Source: Anaerolineae bacterium
GTDB taxonomy: Bacteria; Chloroflexota; Anaerolineae; Aggregatilineales; Phototrophicaceae
Direction: 5' to 3'
DNA: 64,000 nucleotides
Assembly (NCBI GenBank): GCA_022841825.1
Contig: JALHQT010000010.1
Coordinates: 1-64,000 of the forward strand
Shown here: piece by piece, positions 52,208 to 63,630 of the stretch
How positions within the stretch are numbered: position 1 is the stretch's first letter
How the letters are laid out: the number at the start of each line of letters is the position of its first letter
Position numbers and translations under genes: made by a program
Notes under the pieces: model-generated
Seen by the model: only the letters and a program-made list of their open reading frames with translations
Told to the model about the DNA's origin: nothing
Database searches by the model: none

Positions 52208-53446
52208 ATGAATGAATGCAGAGACCTCATCAATACCCTGGCTGCCTGCCTGAGCACGAGCGGTTGGGACCCCGGGCTGGCGCAGTTCGTCCAGATTCTG
52301 CTGGGCGTCGTGCTGGTCACGCTCGCCCCGCTCATCATCGTCATCTTCCTGATCTGGGTCGAGCGCAAGTTCGCCGCCCGCATTCAGGATCGCATCGGTC
52401 CCAACCGTGTCGGTCCGTGGGGCTTGCTCCAAACGATTGCCGACGCGCTCAAGCTGATCACCAAGGAAGACATCACCCCGGCGGGCGCTGACCGCGTGGT
52501 CTTCAACCTCGCGCCGATTGTCTCGGTCGTCTCCGTCATCCTGATCTGGGCGGTCATCCCTCTCAGCCCCATCCACATCGGCGTCGATCTCGAAATTGGC
52601 GCGCTCTACTTCATCGCCGTCGGCAGCATCGGCACGCTGGCGATCATGATGGCGGGCTGGTCGAGCAACAACAAGTATGCGCTGCTCGGTGCGTTCCGCG
52701 TCGTGGCGCAGCTCGTCTCCTACGAAATCCCGTTTGTCTTCGCCATCCTCGTCCCCGTCATGCTGGCGGGCAGCATGGGGATGCAGGACATCGTCGATGC
52801 GCAGCGCGGCATGTGGTTCGCGGTGCTCTCGCCCATCGCCGCCGCCATCTTCTTCCTCTCCGCGCAGGCGGAGACGGGGCGCGCTCCTTTCGACCTGATC
52901 GAAGCGGAGTCGGAACTCGTCGCGGGCTACAACATCGAATACAGCGGCATGAAGTTCGGCTTGTTCTTCGCCGGTGAATTCGTGCATGTGCTGACCAACG
53001 CGCTCCTGCTGGTCGCGTTGTTCTTCGGCGGCTGGGTCGGTCCGTTCGTCGATCAACTGCCGATCCTCGGCTTCGTCTATATGTTTGGCAAAGCCGCGCT
53101 CTTCTATCTCTTCTCGCTGCTGCTGCGCAACACGCTGCCGCGTGTGCGCATTGACCAGATGATGAACTTCAACTGGAAGTTCCTCGTCCCGCTCTCGGTC
53201 ATCAACGTGGCGGTGGTCGCCTTCCTGCTCCAGGTGGTGCGCGCGCTCGGTCTCGCGCCCGCGTCGGGCATGGAAAACGACCTGATCGCCAATCTGCCGC
53301 AGGCGGCAGTGCTGCTGGCGGGCAACCTGGTCATCATCGCGGTCGTCTTACAGCTTCTGCGCAACGCCGGGCGGCGCGATCGTTCGGCGGAGGCGGTTGT
53401 CGTCTCCAAAGAAGACGAGATGCTGCCCGCGCAGGCAGCGCATTGA
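52208..53446 (+). CDS. nuoH: NADH-quinone oxidoreductase subunit H
   Basis: WVERKFAARIQDRIGPNRVGPWGLLQTIADALKLITKEDITP; AETGRAPFDLIEAESELVAGYNIEYSGMKF. Confidence 0.97.
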   Translation: MNECRDLINTLAACLSTSGWDPGLAQFVQILLGVVLVTLAPLIIVIFLIWVERKFAARIQDRIGPNRVGPWGLLQTIADALKLITKEDITPAGADRVVFNLAPIVSVVSVILIWAVIPLSPIHIGVDLEIGALYFIAVGSIGTLAIMMAGWSSNNKYALLGAFRVVAQLVSYEIPFVFAILVPVMLAGSMGMQDIVDAQRGMWFAVLSPIAAAIFFLSAQAETGRAPFDLIEAESELVAGYNIEYSGMKFGLFFAGEFVHVLTNALLLVALFFGGWVGPFVDQLPILGFVYMFGKAALFYLFSLLLRNTLPRVRIDQMMNFNWKFLVPLSVINVAVVAFLLQVVRALGLAPASGMENDLIANLPQAAVLLAGNLVIIAVVLQLLRNAGRRDRSAEAVVVSKEDEMLPAQAAH

Positions 53447-54468: not shown

Positions 54469-56925
54469 ATGGATTTGAGCTTATTTCTCACCGACCGCAA
54501 CTGGATGCCCTGGCTCATCCCCGCGGGACCGCTGCTGGCTTTTCTGGTCATCACCCTGATCACGAATCGCAGCCGTCTGATGCCCGCGACGAGCCACGAC
54601 TACAGCGGCGATGGTCAGCACCCGGAATACCCGAACCTGGCGGTGCACGTCGTCACCCCGCTTGGGCGTGTCGCCTCCATCGTGGTCGGCTTGAGCGGCA
54701 TCATCGCCGCCTGGCTGATTAGCTGGAGCATCGTCGGCTACACCTTCGGCATCGAAGACTTCGGCAAGAAAGTCCTCGAAAGCGCTGTGACCTGGATGAA
54801 TACCGGCACGACCACCTTCGAGATGGGCGTCCTGGTCGATCCGCTCACATCGATCATGCTCGTCATGGTGCCGCTGGCGTGTCTGTGCATCTTCATCTAC
54901 GCCATCGGCTACATGGCGCATGACCCGCGCCAGGCACGCTTCTTCAGCCTGATCTCGCTGTTCGCGGGGGCGATGCTCACACTCGTCGTCGCCGACAACC
55001 TGCTGCTGCTGTTCGTCGGCTGGGAAATCATGGGCTTGTGCTCGTTCATGCTGATCGGCTTCTGGTACGAAAAACCGAGCGCCTACAAAGCCGCCGTCAA
55101 AGCATTCACCACCACCCGCGTCGCCGATGTTATCATGCTGCTCGGCATCGCCTACCTCTATTTCACGACGGGTACGCTCTCGTTCCGCGAAATCCTCTAT
55201 AACGAGGAAGTCCTGAGCGCGCTGTCACAAACCCCCGCAATCATCTTCGGCGGCATCAGCGCCGCCAGCCTGATCGGCGTCTTCCTGATCATCGGCACCA
55301 TCGGCAAGTCGGCACAGTGGCCCATGCACGTCTGGCTGCCCGACGCGATGGAAGGACCCACCCCCGTCAGCGCGATGATCCATGCCGCCGCGATGGTCTC
55401 GGCAGGCGTCTACGCCATCATCCGCATGTATCCGCTGCTCGAAGCAGGCGCGCACCCGCACAGCGGCGAGTTTAATTCGCCGCTGATGCTGATGGCGATC
55501 ATCGGCGCGGTCACGGCATTGTTCGCGGCGACCATCGCGGTCGCGCAAAACGACGTGAAGCGCGTGCTGGCGTACTCGACGATTTCGCAGCTCGGCTTCA
55601 TGGTCGCGGCGCTCGGCATTGGCGCGTATGTCGCCGCCACCTTCCACCTGATCACGCACGCCTTCTTCAAGGCGTTGTTGTTTATGGCATCCGGCGCGGT
55701 CATTCACGGCATGGAGCACGGGCATCACCACGCCCACGCGCACGGGCATGACCATGACGACGAGCATGACCATGCGCACGCACATGACGATCATGGGCAT
55801 GGCGTCGTGATGGAACATGACGAACACGGGCATCCCATCGCGGTCGCGCAGGATGCGCACGGCATGGCGCTCGTCGAGGCACACGGGCACGCGGCGCAAC
55901 CGTATGTCGAGCTGCCCGTCGCCTCGCAAAAAGAGGGCGCGTTCGACGCCCAGGACATGATGAACATGGGCGGTCTGCGCAAGACGATGCCCGTGACCTG
56001 GATCACCTTCCTGATTGGTGGTCTTTCGCTGGCGGGCTTCCCGCTCATCACGGCGGGCTTCTGGTCGAAGGACGAAATTCTGCTCGACGGATGGGTCGGG
56101 CTGAGCGAGGGCTTTGGTCCGCACGCGCTGGTCTTCATCTGCCTGGCGCTGGCAGCGTTCCTGACCGCCTTCTACACCGCGCGCCAGCTCTCGCTGACCT
56201 TCCTGGGCGAGCCGCGCACCGACGCCGCCAAACACGCCAACCTGGGCAAGGGCATCGTCTCCGCGACGATGACGCTGCCGCTCATCATCCTGGCGGTCTT
56301 CGCGCTGTTTGCGGGCTTCGTCGGCGTCCATCCTGACTTCCCGATCCTGGGCGGCATCTTCTCGCCCAACCGCGAAATCCCCTTCAAGGAATTCCTGGGT
56401 TACACGCTGCTGGAAAAGCCAGAACTGGTGCCCTTCAGCATCATCGCGCCGCTGGCATCGTTCGCCGTCGCGCTCGGGGGTCTGGCGCTCGGCTTCTGGA
56501 TGTACGCGCGCCAGCCGCTCAAGGCGGGAGAAGTGGACCCGATGGTGCGCATCCTCGGTCCGGTCTATCCTGTTCTCAGGAACAAGTATTACTTCGACGA
56601 ACTCTACACGGCGATCTTCATCAAGCCTTCGCAGTGGTTCGCCAAAGAGGTGGCGTATGTCTTCCTCGATAAGGGCGTCATCGACGGCTTCCTGCATCTG
56701 GTCGCCCGCGTCTTCACCTGGATCGGCGACTTGATCAAGGTGCTGAACCTGTGGCTGATCGACGGCTTCGGCGACGGCATCCCGGAGATGGTGCAGCGCA
56801 GCGGTTCGTGGCTCAAGCGTATTCAGACCGGGCGCGTGCAGCAGTATATGCTGGTGATCACGCTTGCGCTGGTTGTAATCGCGATCATCTTCGCGTTGTC
56901 ATCGGGCGTTCTGGCAGCACCGTAA
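54469..56925 (+). CDS. nuoL: NADH-quinone oxidoreductase subunit L with His-rich insertion
   Basis: LLLFVGWEIMGLCSFMLIGFWYEKPSAYKAAVKAFTTTRVAD; GKSAQWPMHVWLPDAMEGPTPVSAMIHAAAMVSAGVY; HAFFKALLFMASGAVIHGMEHGHHHAHAHGHDHDDEHDHAHAH. Confidence 0.96.
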   Translation: MDLSLFLTDRNWMPWLIPAGPLLAFLVITLITNRSRLMPATSHDYSGDGQHPEYPNLAVHVVTPLGRVASIVVGLSGIIAAWLISWSIVGYTFGIEDFGKKVLESAVTWMNTGTTTFEMGVLVDPLTSIMLVMVPLACLCIFIYAIGYMAHDPRQARFFSLISLFAGAMLTLVVADNLLLLFVGWEIMGLCSFMLIGFWYEKPSAYKAAVKAFTTTRVADVIMLLGIAYLYFTTGTLSFREILYNEEVLSALSQTPAIIFGGISAASLIGVFLIIGTIGKSAQWPMHVWLPDAMEGPTPVSAMIHAAAMVSAGVYAIIRMYPLLEAGAHPHSGEFNSPLMLMAIIGAVTALFAATIAVAQNDVKRVLAYSTISQLGFMVAALGIGAYVAATFHLITHAFFKALLFMASGAVIHGMEHGHHHAHAHGHDHDDEHDHAHAHDDHGHGVVMEHDEHGHPIAVAQDAHGMALVEAHGHAAQPYVELPVASQKEGAFDAQDMMNMGGLRKTMPVTWITFLIGGLSLAGFPLITAGFWSKDEILLDGWVGLSEGFGPHALVFICLALAAFLTAFYTARQLSLTFLGEPRTDAAKHANLGKGIVSATMTLPLIILAVFALFAGFVGVHPDFPILGGIFSPNREIPFKEFLGYTLLEKPELVPFSIIAPLASFAVALGGLALGFWMYARQPLKAGEVDPMVRILGPVYPVLRNKYYFDELYTAIFIKPSQWFAKEVAYVFLDKGVIDGFLHLVARVFTWIGDLIKVLNLWLIDGFGDGIPEMVQRSGSWLKRIQTGRVQQYMLVITLALVVIAIIFALSSGVLAAP

Positions 56926-56975: not shown

Positions 56976-58565
56976 ATGATCATTGGCATCGACATTCTCT
57001 CCTTTCTCGTGTTCTTCCCGGCGATTGCGGCGCTCATCGTGCTGATCCTGCCGCAGAACCGCATCCTGGCACGGTGGGTGGCGCTCCTGTTCGCGACCAT
57101 CATCACCGGCGTCAGCGTGGCGGTCTACGCGGCGTACAACACGGCGACCCCCGGCTTCCAGTTCGTGATGCAGCAGGAATGGTTCGAGGTGCTGGGCGCA
57201 AGCTGGCACATCGGCATCGACGGCATCAGCGCGTCGATGATCCTGCTGACGGGCATCCTCGCGCCGCTGGCAGTGCTCATCTCATGGGAAATCGAAGATC
57301 GCGTCAACACGCATCTGGCGCTGGTGCTGTTCTTCGTCACCGGCTGTATGGGCACGTTCGTGGCGCTCGACCTGATGATCTTCTTCATCTTCTACGAACT
57401 GAGCCTCGTGCCGATGTACTTCCTCATCAACCAGTGGGGAGGACCCAACCGCCGCTACGCATCGACCAAGTTCTTCATCTACTCGATGGGCGGCACGCTG
57501 GGGATGCTGCTGGCGACGCAGCTCATCGGCATTACGATGGGCACCTTCGACATCGTGACGCTGACGCAGAACTGGCCCGCCTTCGCAGGCGACCCGACCA
57601 ACGCGACCTTCCTCGGCATCAGCGTCAGCACCGTCAAGGCGCTGGCATTCCTGGGCTTCTTCATCGCCTTCTGCATCAAGGTGCCCGTGTGGCCCTTCCA
57701 CACCTGGCTGCCCGACGCGCACAGCGAAGCGCCGACCGCCGGGTCGATGCTGCTGGCGGGCGTCATGCTCAAGCTGGGCGCGTATGGCTTCCTGCGCCTC
57801 GTCATCCCGCTCTTCCCCGATGTGTGGGTCGAGCCGATCAACTTCCTCGGCTTCCTGGAGACCAACTGGGCGGGCATCTTCGCCTTCCTGGCGCTGCTCG
57901 GCATCGTGCTGGGCGCGTTCGCCGCCTTCGGGCAGACGGACATCAAGCGCCTGGTCGCCTACAGCTCGGTCAATCACATGGGCTTCGTGGCGTTGGGCAT
58001 CGCGGTGACGGCGCTGGTCTACGGGCAGGCGTATGTCAACGGCGACAGCGCGCACATGATGGACGCCATCATGGCGACCAACGGCGCAGTCCTGCAAATG
58101 TTCAATCACGGGCTGTCGTCGGCGGGCATGTTCTTGCTGGCGGGCGCGATTTACCACAAGACGCATACGCGCGATATGACGCAGTTCGGCGGTCTGTGGG
58201 TGCGCGCGCCCATCTACGGCGGCATCTTCATCTTCATGAGCATGGCGAGCCTGGGGCTGCCGGGTCTGAACGGCTTCGTCAGCGAATTCCTGGTCGTGCG
58301 CGGCTCGTGGCCCGTCTACACTGTCCTGACGCTGATCGCCATGATCGGCTTGCTCTTCACCGGCTCGTACATCCTCAAGGGCATTCGCGGCGTCCTGCAG
58401 GGTCCTTTCAACATGAACTGGGCGGGCACGCGCCTGGAGATTGAAGCGCGTGAGGTCATCGCCGTTGCGCCGCTGATGGTGTTGATCCTGCTGACAGGTT
58501 TAGCGCCGAACTGGATACTTTCGGTCATCAATGCGACAGTCACGAGCTGGCTGGGCGGCGTCTAA
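56976..58565 (+). CDS. nuoM: NADH-quinone oxidoreductase subunit M (first copy)
   Basis: FFIFYELSLVPMYFLINQWGG; CIKVPVWPFHTWLPDAHSEAPTAGSMLLAGVMLKLGAYGFLR. Confidence 0.96.
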   Translation: MIIGIDILSFLVFFPAIAALIVLILPQNRILARWVALLFATIITGVSVAVYAAYNTATPGFQFVMQQEWFEVLGASWHIGIDGISASMILLTGILAPLAVLISWEIEDRVNTHLALVLFFVTGCMGTFVALDLMIFFIFYELSLVPMYFLINQWGGPNRRYASTKFFIYSMGGTLGMLLATQLIGITMGTFDIVTLTQNWPAFAGDPTNATFLGISVSTVKALAFLGFFIAFCIKVPVWPFHTWLPDAHSEAPTAGSMLLAGVMLKLGAYGFLRLVIPLFPDVWVEPINFLGFLETNWAGIFAFLALLGIVLGAFAAFGQTDIKRLVAYSSVNHMGFVALGIAVTALVYGQAYVNGDSAHMMDAIMATNGAVLQMFNHGLSSAGMFLLAGAIYHKTHTRDMTQFGGLWVRAPIYGGIFIFMSMASLGLPGLNGFVSEFLVVRGSWPVYTVLTLIAMIGLLFTGSYILKGIRGVLQGPFNMNWAGTRLEIEAREVIAVAPLMVLILLTGLAPNWILSVINATVTSWLGGV

Positions 58566-58576
58566 AGGGGCAGTTC

Positions 58577-60256
58577 ATGGAAGCAATTGGTTTTCCGGTA
58601 CTCAGTCTGATCATCTTCGTCCCGATTGTGGCGGCGGTGATCATCCTGTTCCTCAACAAGGAGCAGCGCGATCTCGCGCGCGGCATCGCCATCACGGCGG
58701 CTGCCGTCTGCTTCGCCTTGAGTCTGTTCGTCTACGTCACCTACAACAACAATGTGGATGCCATCGTCGCCGAGCAGGAGCTGTTGCAGCAGGCGGACGG
58801 CGCGGGGCAGGCAACGGACCAGTTTGAGGCGTCCGTCGCGTTTGAAGAGCGCATCGACTGGATGCCCTCGCTTGGCATCAGCTATCACCTGGGCGTGGAT
58901 GGCTTGAGCGTGCCGATGGTCTTGCTGACGGGGATGGTCGCCGTCACAGGCGTGCTGATCTCGTGGCGCATCGAAGACCGCACGCGCGAATTCATGGCAT
59001 TCTTCCTTCTGCTGGTCGCGGGTGTCTTCGGCGTCTTTGTCTCACTCGATTTGTTTGTGCTCTTCTTCTTCTACGAACTCGCCATCTTCCCGATGTACCT
59101 GCTGATCGCAACCTGGGGCTGGGTCAAGCTGCGCGAATACGCGGCGATGAAGCTGACGCTGTATATCCTGATCGGGTCGGTCATCTCGCTGGTTGGCGTG
59201 ATCGCCATGTACTTCGTGGCGGGCAACTTCTTCACGACTAACCCCGACCTGCTGCCCGTCGGCGACAGCGCCTTCAGCTTTGGCATCGCGCACATGATGC
59301 GCGCGTCGGAACTCGGCGCGTTCAGCATCCCGGTGCTGGGCGACATCTCGTTCTCGAACGCCTGGTTCCCCTTCATCTTCCTCGGCTTCGCGGTGCTGGC
59401 GGGTATCTTCCCGTTCCACAACTGGTCGCCGGATGGTCACGTCGCCGCCCCGACCGCCGTCTCGATGATCCACGCGGGCGTGCTGATGAAGCTCGGCGCA
59501 TTCGCGGCACTGCGCGTCGGCGTGCAGCTCCTGCCGGACGGCGCACATACGCATATGCCCTGGATCGTCTTCCTCACGCTGATCAACGTCGTCTACGGGG
59601 CGTTCATCGCCTTCCGCCAGCGCGACTTCAAGTACGTGATCGGTTTCTCGTCCGTCTCGCACATGGGTCTGGTGTCGATGGGCTTCGCCACGATGAACCT
59701 GACGGGCATGACGGGCGCGGGCTTGCAGATGTTCTCGCACGGCGCGATGACGGCACTCTTCTTCGGCTGCGTCGGCATGGTCTACGACCGGGCGCACACG
59801 CGCGACATCCCCAGCCTGGGCGGGTTTGCGAAGGTGATGCCCTGGGTGGCGTTCGCCTTCATTGTCGGTGGTCTGACGAGTATGGGGATGCCGGGGTTAA
59901 GCGGCTTCGTCGCCGAGTTCCCGATCTTCGCGGGCATGTGGGAAGCATCGGAGCAGATCAGTCTGACCATCGGCTCGTTCACGCTGACGAACTACTATTC
60001 GGTCATCGTCATCCTGAGCGCGCTTGGCATCGTCATCACGGCAGCCTACGTGCTGCGGGTGACGGGGCAGGTCTTCATGGGCGAGTTCAACCGCGAAAAG
60101 TACCCGGACGTGGACGACATCACGGTGCGTGAGCGCTTCATCCTGGTCTTCCTCGCCTCGCCGCTGGTCATCATCGGCATATTCCCGACTGTAATGGCAC
60201 CAATGCTGGAGACAGGCTTCCGCCCGGTGCTGGCGATCCTTGGAATAGGAGTATAA
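58577..60256 (+). CDS. nuoM: NADH-quinone oxidoreductase subunit M paralog (second copy)
   Basis: LFFFYELAIFPMYLLIATWG; FAVLAGIFPFHNWSPDGHVAAPTAVSMIHAGVLMKLGAF. Confidence 0.93.
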   Translation: MEAIGFPVLSLIIFVPIVAAVIILFLNKEQRDLARGIAITAAAVCFALSLFVYVTYNNNVDAIVAEQELLQQADGAGQATDQFEASVAFEERIDWMPSLGISYHLGVDGLSVPMVLLTGMVAVTGVLISWRIEDRTREFMAFFLLLVAGVFGVFVSLDLFVLFFFYELAIFPMYLLIATWGWVKLREYAAMKLTLYILIGSVISLVGVIAMYFVAGNFFTTNPDLLPVGDSAFSFGIAHMMRASELGAFSIPVLGDISFSNAWFPFIFLGFAVLAGIFPFHNWSPDGHVAAPTAVSMIHAGVLMKLGAFAALRVGVQLLPDGAHTHMPWIVFLTLINVVYGAFIAFRQRDFKYVIGFSSVSHMGLVSMGFATMNLTGMTGAGLQMFSHGAMTALFFGCVGMVYDRAHTRDIPSLGGFAKVMPWVAFAFIVGGLTSMGMPGLSGFVAEFPIFAGMWEASEQISLTIGSFTLTNYYSVIVILSALGIVITAAYVLRVTGQVFMGEFNREKYPDVDDITVRERFILVFLASPLVIIGIFPTVMAPMLETGFRPVLAILGIGV

Positions 60257-62313: not shown

Positions 62314-63630
62314 ATGAACGCAACCGTTCGTGGCTTAATGATCTTTGGCGGTTTGGTGCTGTTCATTGCGGCGTGCGCGTGGCTGACCTTCAGCTTCCTG
62401 CCTAGCAACAATGTGTCGGTCGCCGTCCCCGTCATCACCGTCCCAGGCGAGTCGTTCGGCGGCGCGCTGCCCGATGATCCGGCGTATGGCGTGCAGAACT
62501 TCCTGGGCGGGTGGACGAACACCTTCCTGGCGATGCTGCTTGCCGACGCGCTGGTCATCATCTTCGCCCTCTGGGCGCGCAGCAGCTCCAAGAATTGGAC
62601 CCGCGAAGTGCCGACCCGCATCCAGGGCTGGGCAGAGTTGCTCGGCAACTTCATCTATTCGCAGGTGCAGAACTTCGCCGGGCGCAAGCCGCTGGCGCTG
62701 AACTGGCTCTTCCCGCTCGCGGCGACGATCTTCGTCTTCCTGCTGGCGGTCAACTGGATGAAGCTGCTGCCCGGCATCGAGTCGGTCGGCGTCATCCACT
62801 GCGCGCACGGCGGCTTCACGGGCTACCCCGCGATCAAGCTGAATGACGGCGCGTATCAGCTCTATGTCGATAGCCCGCTGAACTCCGGCGTCGGCGCGAC
62901 CGAAGAGAGCTATCACGACTGCGAGCACTACAAGGAACACCCGGAAGAACGCCCATCGAGCGAAGAAAAGGGCGCGATGGTCGAACTGCTGGCGGAAGAA
63001 GAAGCGGTGCTGCGTGAACAGCTCACCGCCGAAGGCATCACCGATGCTGCCGAGATTGACACGCGCGTCAATGCGCTGCGCCTCGAAGTCATCGAAACCG
63101 CCTACCCGCACGCCACGCTGCCGCTCTCTCCCGAGCAGTTGAAGGAAGGCGCGCTGCCTTACATCTTCGCCGTCACGCCGTATGTGCGTGGTGGTTCGAC
63201 AGACCTCAACCTGACGCTCGGTCTGGCGCTGGTCGCCTTCTTCGCCTTCCAGGTCTTCGGCGTCGCGGCGCAGGGTCCGGCGTACTTCATGAAGTTCATC
63301 AACGTCAATGCGTTGGGCAACATTCAGAAGAAGCCGCTGGGGGCGATTGACTTCATCGTCGGCTTGATCGAGATCATCTCCGAAATCGGGAAGATCATCT
63401 CGCTTGCCTTCCGTCTATTTGGCAATATGTTCGCGGGCGGTATTTTGCTGGCGGTTATGTCATTCCTGGTCGCCTTCATCGTCCCAGCGATCTTCATCGG
63501 TCTGGAAGTCATCATCACGACGATCCAGGCGCTGGTGTTCGCCATTCTCACAATTGTGTTCTCGGCGCAGGCGATGGAAGGTCATCACGGCGACGACGAG
63601 CATCACGAGGAACACGCGGAAGCGCACTAA
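62314..63630 (+). CDS. atpB: ATP synthase F0 subunit a with large loop insertion
   Basis: STDLNLTLGLALVAFFAFQ, ISEIGKIISLAFRLFGNMFAGGILL (conserved Arg), C-terminal IQALVFAILTIVFSAQAM; 438 aa. Confidence 0.94.
   Translation: MNATVRGLMIFGGLVLFIAACAWLTFSFLPSNNVSVAVPVITVPGESFGGALPDDPAYGVQNFLGGWTNTFLAMLLADALVIIFALWARSSSKNWTREVPTRIQGWAELLGNFIYSQVQNFAGRKPLALNWLFPLAATIFVFLLAVNWMKLLPGIESVGVIHCAHGGFTGYPAIKLNDGAYQLYVDSPLNSGVGATEESYHDCEHYKEHPEERPSSEEKGAMVELLAEEEAVLREQLTAEGITDAAEIDTRVNALRLEVIETAYPHATLPLSPEQLKEGALPYIFAVTPYVRGGSTDLNLTLGLALVAFFAFQVFGVAAQGPAYFMKFINVNALGNIQKKPLGAIDFIVGLIEIISEIGKIISLAFRLFGNMFAGGILLAVMSFLVAFIVPAIFIGLEVIITTIQALVFAILTIVFSAQAMEGHHGDDEHHEEHAEAH

Follow-up and report, generated by a model that had tools for sequence, protein, structure and literature searches.

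A histidine- and acid-rich loop of Anaerolineae NuoL, predicted to lie on the proton-uptake side of complex I

Canonical NuoL/ND5 subunits of complex I (E. coli NuoL, T. elongatus NdhF, Paracoccus NuoL) share the fold, the key residues and the operon setting with the Anaerolineae NuoL considered in the present study, but their TM11–TM12 loop comprises about 10 residues, versus 82 in this protein. The cytoplasmic side is the side of proton uptake by complex I. Current models suppose that protons enter from the cytosol via NuoL and NuoM and exit via NuoL (PMC10212512), and the cytoplasmic path is gated at TMH11 in the related subunits ND4/MrpD (PMC9568556). Two kinds of described loops can be compared with the long loop of this NuoL. 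A loop of QcrB has been proposed as a proton collector serving the D-channel of mycobacterial complex IV (PMC11189923); it is likewise flexible, protonatable and located where a respiratory pump takes up protons, but it belongs to another complex, its role was suggested on the basis of simulation and structure, and the NuoL loop is very rich in His. The His-rich loops found in metal transporters (CDF, ZIP, plant IRT1; PMC12203963) resemble the NuoL loop in being HxH-rich, disordered and cytosolic, the last two features being predicted for NuoL, and the IRT1 loop binds Zn and Mn via four His and an Asp (PMC12203963); CDF, ZIP and IRT1 proteins carry metals, whereas NuoL does not.

The gene under study is located in a stretch of 64,000 nucleotides (the window) on contig 10 of a 5.9 Mb genome (G000) with Anaerolineae of the Chloroflexota as its closest named relatives, where the gene order from position 52208 is nuoH, J, K, L, M, M, N, followed by atpB. 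All models indicate an ordinary NuoL: the product passes the curated cut-offs of NCBIfam TIGR01974 (568 bits, cut-off 407.5) and NF005141 (589.5 bits, cut-off 556), matches Pfam PF00361 and PF00662, and possesses the key residues and the lateral helix in a nuo operon setting. E186, K280, H305 and K534, which do not vary among 40 sequences, correspond to GluTM5, LysTM7, HisTM8 and LysTM12. The NCBIfam, Pfam and PDB alignments are interrupted at the insert and resumed past it; the insert, whose 82 residues include 20 His and 16 Asp/Glu, lies between ...SGAVIH and DMMNMGGL, codon 414 beginning at 55708 and codon 495 finishing at 55953. The original prediction had placed a peptide with about 20 His, together with Asp/Glu, at 55708–55950; this peptide matches the translation of 54469–56925 letter for letter, the composition agrees with the count, and the coordinates are right within three bases. 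A frameshift as the source of the insert is ruled out by the frame, open for 818 aa, and by both flanks, which align with solved NuoL/NdhF chains. The sole DNA repeat at the insert is a weak imperfect 18-bp/6-bp array (55734–55788). NuoL is a known subunit, and its His-rich TM11–TM12 loop is a new variation on it; no description of such a loop was found in the limited literature collection searched.

Table 1. Coordinates of the nuoL gene, of the features of its product and of the adjacent nuoM genes.
Feature	Position	Strand	Basis
nuoL, NADH-quinone oxidoreductase subunit L, 818 aa	54469..56925	+	NCBIfam, Pfam, structural match to solved NuoL/NdhF chains
TM11, aa 387–413, with H393, H397 and K401	55627..55707	+	AlphaFold2 (high confidence); H393, H397 and K401 in invariant alignment columns; 3rko_L alignment end points
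His/Asp/Glu-rich insert, aa 414–495, predicted cytoplasmic TM11–TM12 loop	55708..55953	+	Sequence, relatives, selection
Conserved head EHGHHH, aa 416–421, family pattern [MV]EHG[HE]HH	55714..55731	+	103 His-rich loops
Predicted disordered part of the insert, aa 430–489	55756..55935	+	10-residue mean pLDDT 34–56, AlphaFold2
TM12, aa 508–546, break at 523–528	55990..56106	+	AlphaFold2; ungapped alignment to 3rko_L
Long lateral helix HL, aa 706–763	56584..56757	+	AlphaFold2; side from PMC7419157
nuoM copy 1	56976..58565	+	TIGR01972, 482.8 bits; at most 4 His per 40 aa, without His-rich loop
nuoM copy 2	58577..60256	+	TIGR01972, 435 bits; at most 4 His per 40 aa, without His-rich loop

The tandem nuoM genes, both of which match TIGR01972, assign the operon to the '2M' type, in which complex I gains one more antiporter-like subunit; the two-nuoM arrangement is common to many Anaerolineae relatives. 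The His-rich loop is a separate trait. A tie between the two was ruled out, since they occur apart: the loop also occurs in operons with one NuoM (L021, L055, L072, L109), and it is short in some two-NuoM operons. Downstream, atpB (62314–63630) is unusually long (438 aa), with about 110 additional residues near 150–280 containing several His/Cys/Glu, and the C-terminal tail of AtpB is His/Glu-rich (AMEGHHGDDEHHEEHAEAH), with shorter forms across the class. The idea of a His-rich counterpart module on the ATP synthase was dropped, the AtpB His/Glu tail being common, short and variable in class members. Elsewhere in the genome, a frame on the minus strand (L440, G000:C2:686600-688600) contains a very long His/Val/Leu/Ala-rich run (HHAHALHVAHHVLHVLHH...) and possibly represents the antisense strand of a repetitive gene.

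AlphaFold2 modelling of NuoL with 40 homologues (mean pLDDT 83.5) predicted an order of helices matching the 16-TM NuoL plan, with E186 in TM5, K280 in TM7, H305 in TM8, H393, H397 and K401 in TM11, and K534 in TM12. K534 (codon 56068–56070) adjoins the TM12 break and corresponds to E. coli NuoL K399 in the ungapped alignment to 3rko_L, and K401 corresponds to E. coli K342 according to the end points of the alignment with the same chain; because of the helix order and these two correspondences, the insert is assigned to the TM11–TM12 loop. On the cytoplasmic side, helix HL reaches from TMH15 to 16 (PMC7419157), and four helices (TM12–TM15) separate the loop from it; the modelled loop is therefore placed on the cytoplasmic (N) side, the side of proton uptake, and the Lys/Arg counts in the NuoL loops weakly agree with this placement. 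A periplasmic position at the proton exit, with K401 taken as the TM12 lysine, was ruled out by the equivalence of K534 and K399 and by the helix count. In the model, the TM11 helix extends to residue 427 and the loop emerges from its cytoplasmic end. Topology prediction had been proposed as a check along with the original prediction, as had a comparison of NuoL within the class, which mapped the insert and revealed its fixed EHGxHH head.

The His-rich loop was found in all 15 genomes of the genus (loops read and genus search). The second nuo operon of the same genome, with one nuoM (L109, G000:C4:186000-196000), also encodes a NuoL with a 49-aa TM11–TM12 loop containing 15 His. Among 149 distinct sequences of the class set, which includes a few outsiders, 106 have at least six His in the loop (about 70% of the Anaerolineae NuoL read) and 58 have at least ten; the length of the loop across His-rich Anaerolineae NuoL varies from about 20 to 100 aa. 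The loop was expected to be short in canonical NuoL, and this is the case: other Chloroflexota classes, Pseudomonadota, Planctomycetota, Nitrospirota and Bacteroidota have 5–11 residues there, rarely about 20–22, with 0–6 His. Some 2M-type Anaerolineae NuoLs have a loop of just 16–17 aa with three His (L013, L014, L016–L018). Absence from close relatives would have pointed to a strain or assembly artefact, which is ruled out by the presence of the loop in 15/15 genus genomes and in both NuoL paralogues, as well as in most of the class. The His-rich loop is specific to NuoL, being absent from NuoM1, NuoM2, NuoN, NuoJ, K, H, the MrpA-like protein and a third NuoL-like paralogue. This third protein, present in some genus mates (L446, L447, L448), has a short loop (HAVGTRDMRRMG) and belongs to a different complex. 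The TM11–TM12 insert of one family (L100, L101) also has a conserved non-His stretch (SYTWADLNAKIEHGIEAGHLQPGERTPYGADYVGPNGELPDDAEWKTSIPQGLKPDF), near-identical between two species. On a NuoL core tree built without the loop (a quick tree with long branches; 188 rows), 109 His-rich and 79 other rows require 12 state changes, compared with a mean of 60 after shuffling; nine of the 12 are forced by well-supported branches, and the His-rich state spans both NuoL paralogue groups.

The head of the loop is fixed: among 103 His-rich loops, Glu occupies the second position in 103, His the third in 102, Gly the fourth in 100 and His the sixth in 96. Past the head, the length and order of residues drift and the make-up is kept (104 loops pooled: His 24.5%, Asp 11.5%, Glu 11.2%, Lys and Arg together about 3%, Cys 2/4767). 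Such a pattern raises the question of neutral low-complexity growth, i.e., slippage in a permissive loop producing short H/D/A/G repeats; weak repeats, the many indels between close relatives and a loop pN exceeding the core pN agree with it. In close pairs, the loop pN is nevertheless lower than pS. Slippage is opposed by the near-equal mix of His codons (CAC 612, CAT 554) and by the rarity, in the pooled make-up, of Tyr and Arg, the commonest transition neighbours of His codons. In seven close gapless pairs, which are few and were picked as alignable and hence are biased toward conservation, 21 of 30 changes at His codons are silent and nine are replacing (p ~3e-8 if the neutral share of silent changes is taken as 0.22); the changes past the tenth residue alone divide into 14 silent and eight replacing (p ~3e-5 against the same share). 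The excess of silent changes, together with the persistence of the His-rich state on the class tree in two paralogues, makes neutral growth a disfavoured and quite improbable explanation. The insert is real, under selection and, in the AlphaFold2 model, mostly disordered; drift without conserved His, which would have counted against the original prediction, does not describe these loops.

The loop could also be a flexible spacer or a docking arm touching another protein or the peripheral arm, with His being tolerated or aiding solubility. The disorder of the loop in the AlphaFold2 model and its fixed ends combined with a highly variable length would suit a spacer, but the property that is kept is composition (His ~25%, Lys/Arg ~3%) rather than length, His codons resist replacement, and no partner is known; we consider this explanation improbable, if slightly less so than neutral growth.

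A comparison with other phyla revealed a similar composition in another loop of the same protein. Some Pseudomonadota and Planctomycetota NuoL contain 8–16 His in the TM13–TM14 loop (L333, L343, L330, L321, L341, L312), located two helices past the TM11–TM12 loop on the same cytoplasmic face; the H/D/G/A make-up, the protein and the face are shared, and the loop differs. In several of them the TM13–TM14 sequence (HDHGHDDH; GHHDDHAHDDHGHDDHGHGDHGHAPHESP in L333) is near-identical to that of the Anaerolineae TM11–TM12 loop. In the Anaerolineae set read, the TM13–TM14 loop has a median of one His and a maximum of two. The His counts of the two loops are negatively correlated across 204 sequences (rho -0.68), a correlation confounded by phylogeny, and within Anaerolineae no clear trade-off was seen between a short TM11–TM12 loop and more His in TM13–TM14 (p = 0.21). 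A Planctomycetota NuoL (L290, G386:C100) has a long Glu/His-rich TM13–TM14 loop (EEEERHGGTEARRHEGAEDGDTHGADDAHGANDAHHEP). These data are suggestive of a recurrence of the His-rich loop across phyla. Complex I might even possess, as a general module that evolved repeatedly, a disordered segment rich in His, Asp and Glu at the cytoplasmic face of NuoL, which would sit in TM11–TM12 in Anaerolineae or in TM13–TM14 in some Pseudomonadota and Planctomycetota and would gather protons or let cytosolic pH or metal set uptake by the distal pump; we regard this generalisation as rather doubtful.

The original prediction offered a metal-buffering and a proton-antenna role, and its interpretation is supported in part: the insert and its conserved His stand, and the two roles are still two hypotheses. 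In the first, the loop would bind divalent metals (Zn, Ni, Co, Cu) and shield the proton entry, store metal, or sense it and throttle the pump at high cytosolic metal levels. His-rich loops of metal transporters sense metal and throttle transport. The NuoL loop resembles metal proteins of its own genome, named from their own sequences: a CDF-type transporter starts with MGSTHEHASEHQHTHDHEHSHGHDHQH, and a COG0523-like GTPase contains HVHEAGEAHDHDHDHDH. A genome-wide HxHxHxH scan yielded mostly other frames or chance matches, and the real runs read were those of these two proteins. The His spacings of 2, 3 and 4 (HxH, HxxH, HxxxH) occur 420, 415 and 415 times in the loops, compared with about 270 in shuffles; in a disordered loop the HxH and HxxH enrichment speaks for metal binding, although short repeats would yield the same spacings. 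The predicted cytosolic and disordered state is also the one found in the IRT1 loop. Several observations weigh against this role, however. NuoL is not a metal transporter, its Pfam and NCBIfam matches include no metal-transport family, and an inspection of the nuo/atp genes in the window turned up no metal regulator or transporter. Past the head, the His residues vary in number and spacing, so no defined site is conserved there, and the same composition on the same NuoL face in other phyla points to a job of the subunit itself. Binding of metals such as Zn or Ni in vitro would be expected of any such peptide and hence would be no proof of function. All in all, metal binding is a serious rival, though less likely than not.

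The proton antenna is slightly favoured over metal binding because of the side, the subunit specificity and the recurrence of the loop. According to this reading, the insert would be an N-side proton-collecting buffer for the cytosolic half-channel of NuoL: the imidazoles and carboxylates of the loop would swap protons with the cytosol and keep them near the mouth of the half-channel, with the conserved EHGxHH head, at the end of TM11, serving as a relay into the protein. The 82-residue loop has dense groups with a pKa near the cytosolic pH on the predicted uptake side, and a buffer that collects protons would be in keeping with such His/acid groups at the uptake face of the sole subunit in which both the input and the output path are complete. 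The origin of the loop at the cytoplasmic end of TM11, its composition, the excess of silent changes at His codons and the small number of state changes on the NuoL tree also speak for this reading. We infer that the loop lies near enough to the proton entry to feed it and that the selection acts on proton capture. A proton antenna would not be essential, because most bacterial NuoLs function with few His at this site; the 2M-type Anaerolineae NuoLs with a short three-His loop count against it, and the enriched HxH, HxxH and HxxxH spacings fit metal ligands or short repeats at least equally well. The antenna is put forward tentatively, with a somewhat less than even chance of being correct.

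The site of cytosolic proton entry into complex I, and whether all protons exit through NuoL, are still debated. A protonatable loop found on NuoL alone, at the predicted uptake face, and kept across the class tree offers a natural handle on uptake: if NuoL is a main entry, shortening the loop or removing its His should alter uptake kinetics. Should the loop turn out to bind metal, it would brake or shield a respiratory pump in a metal-dependent manner.
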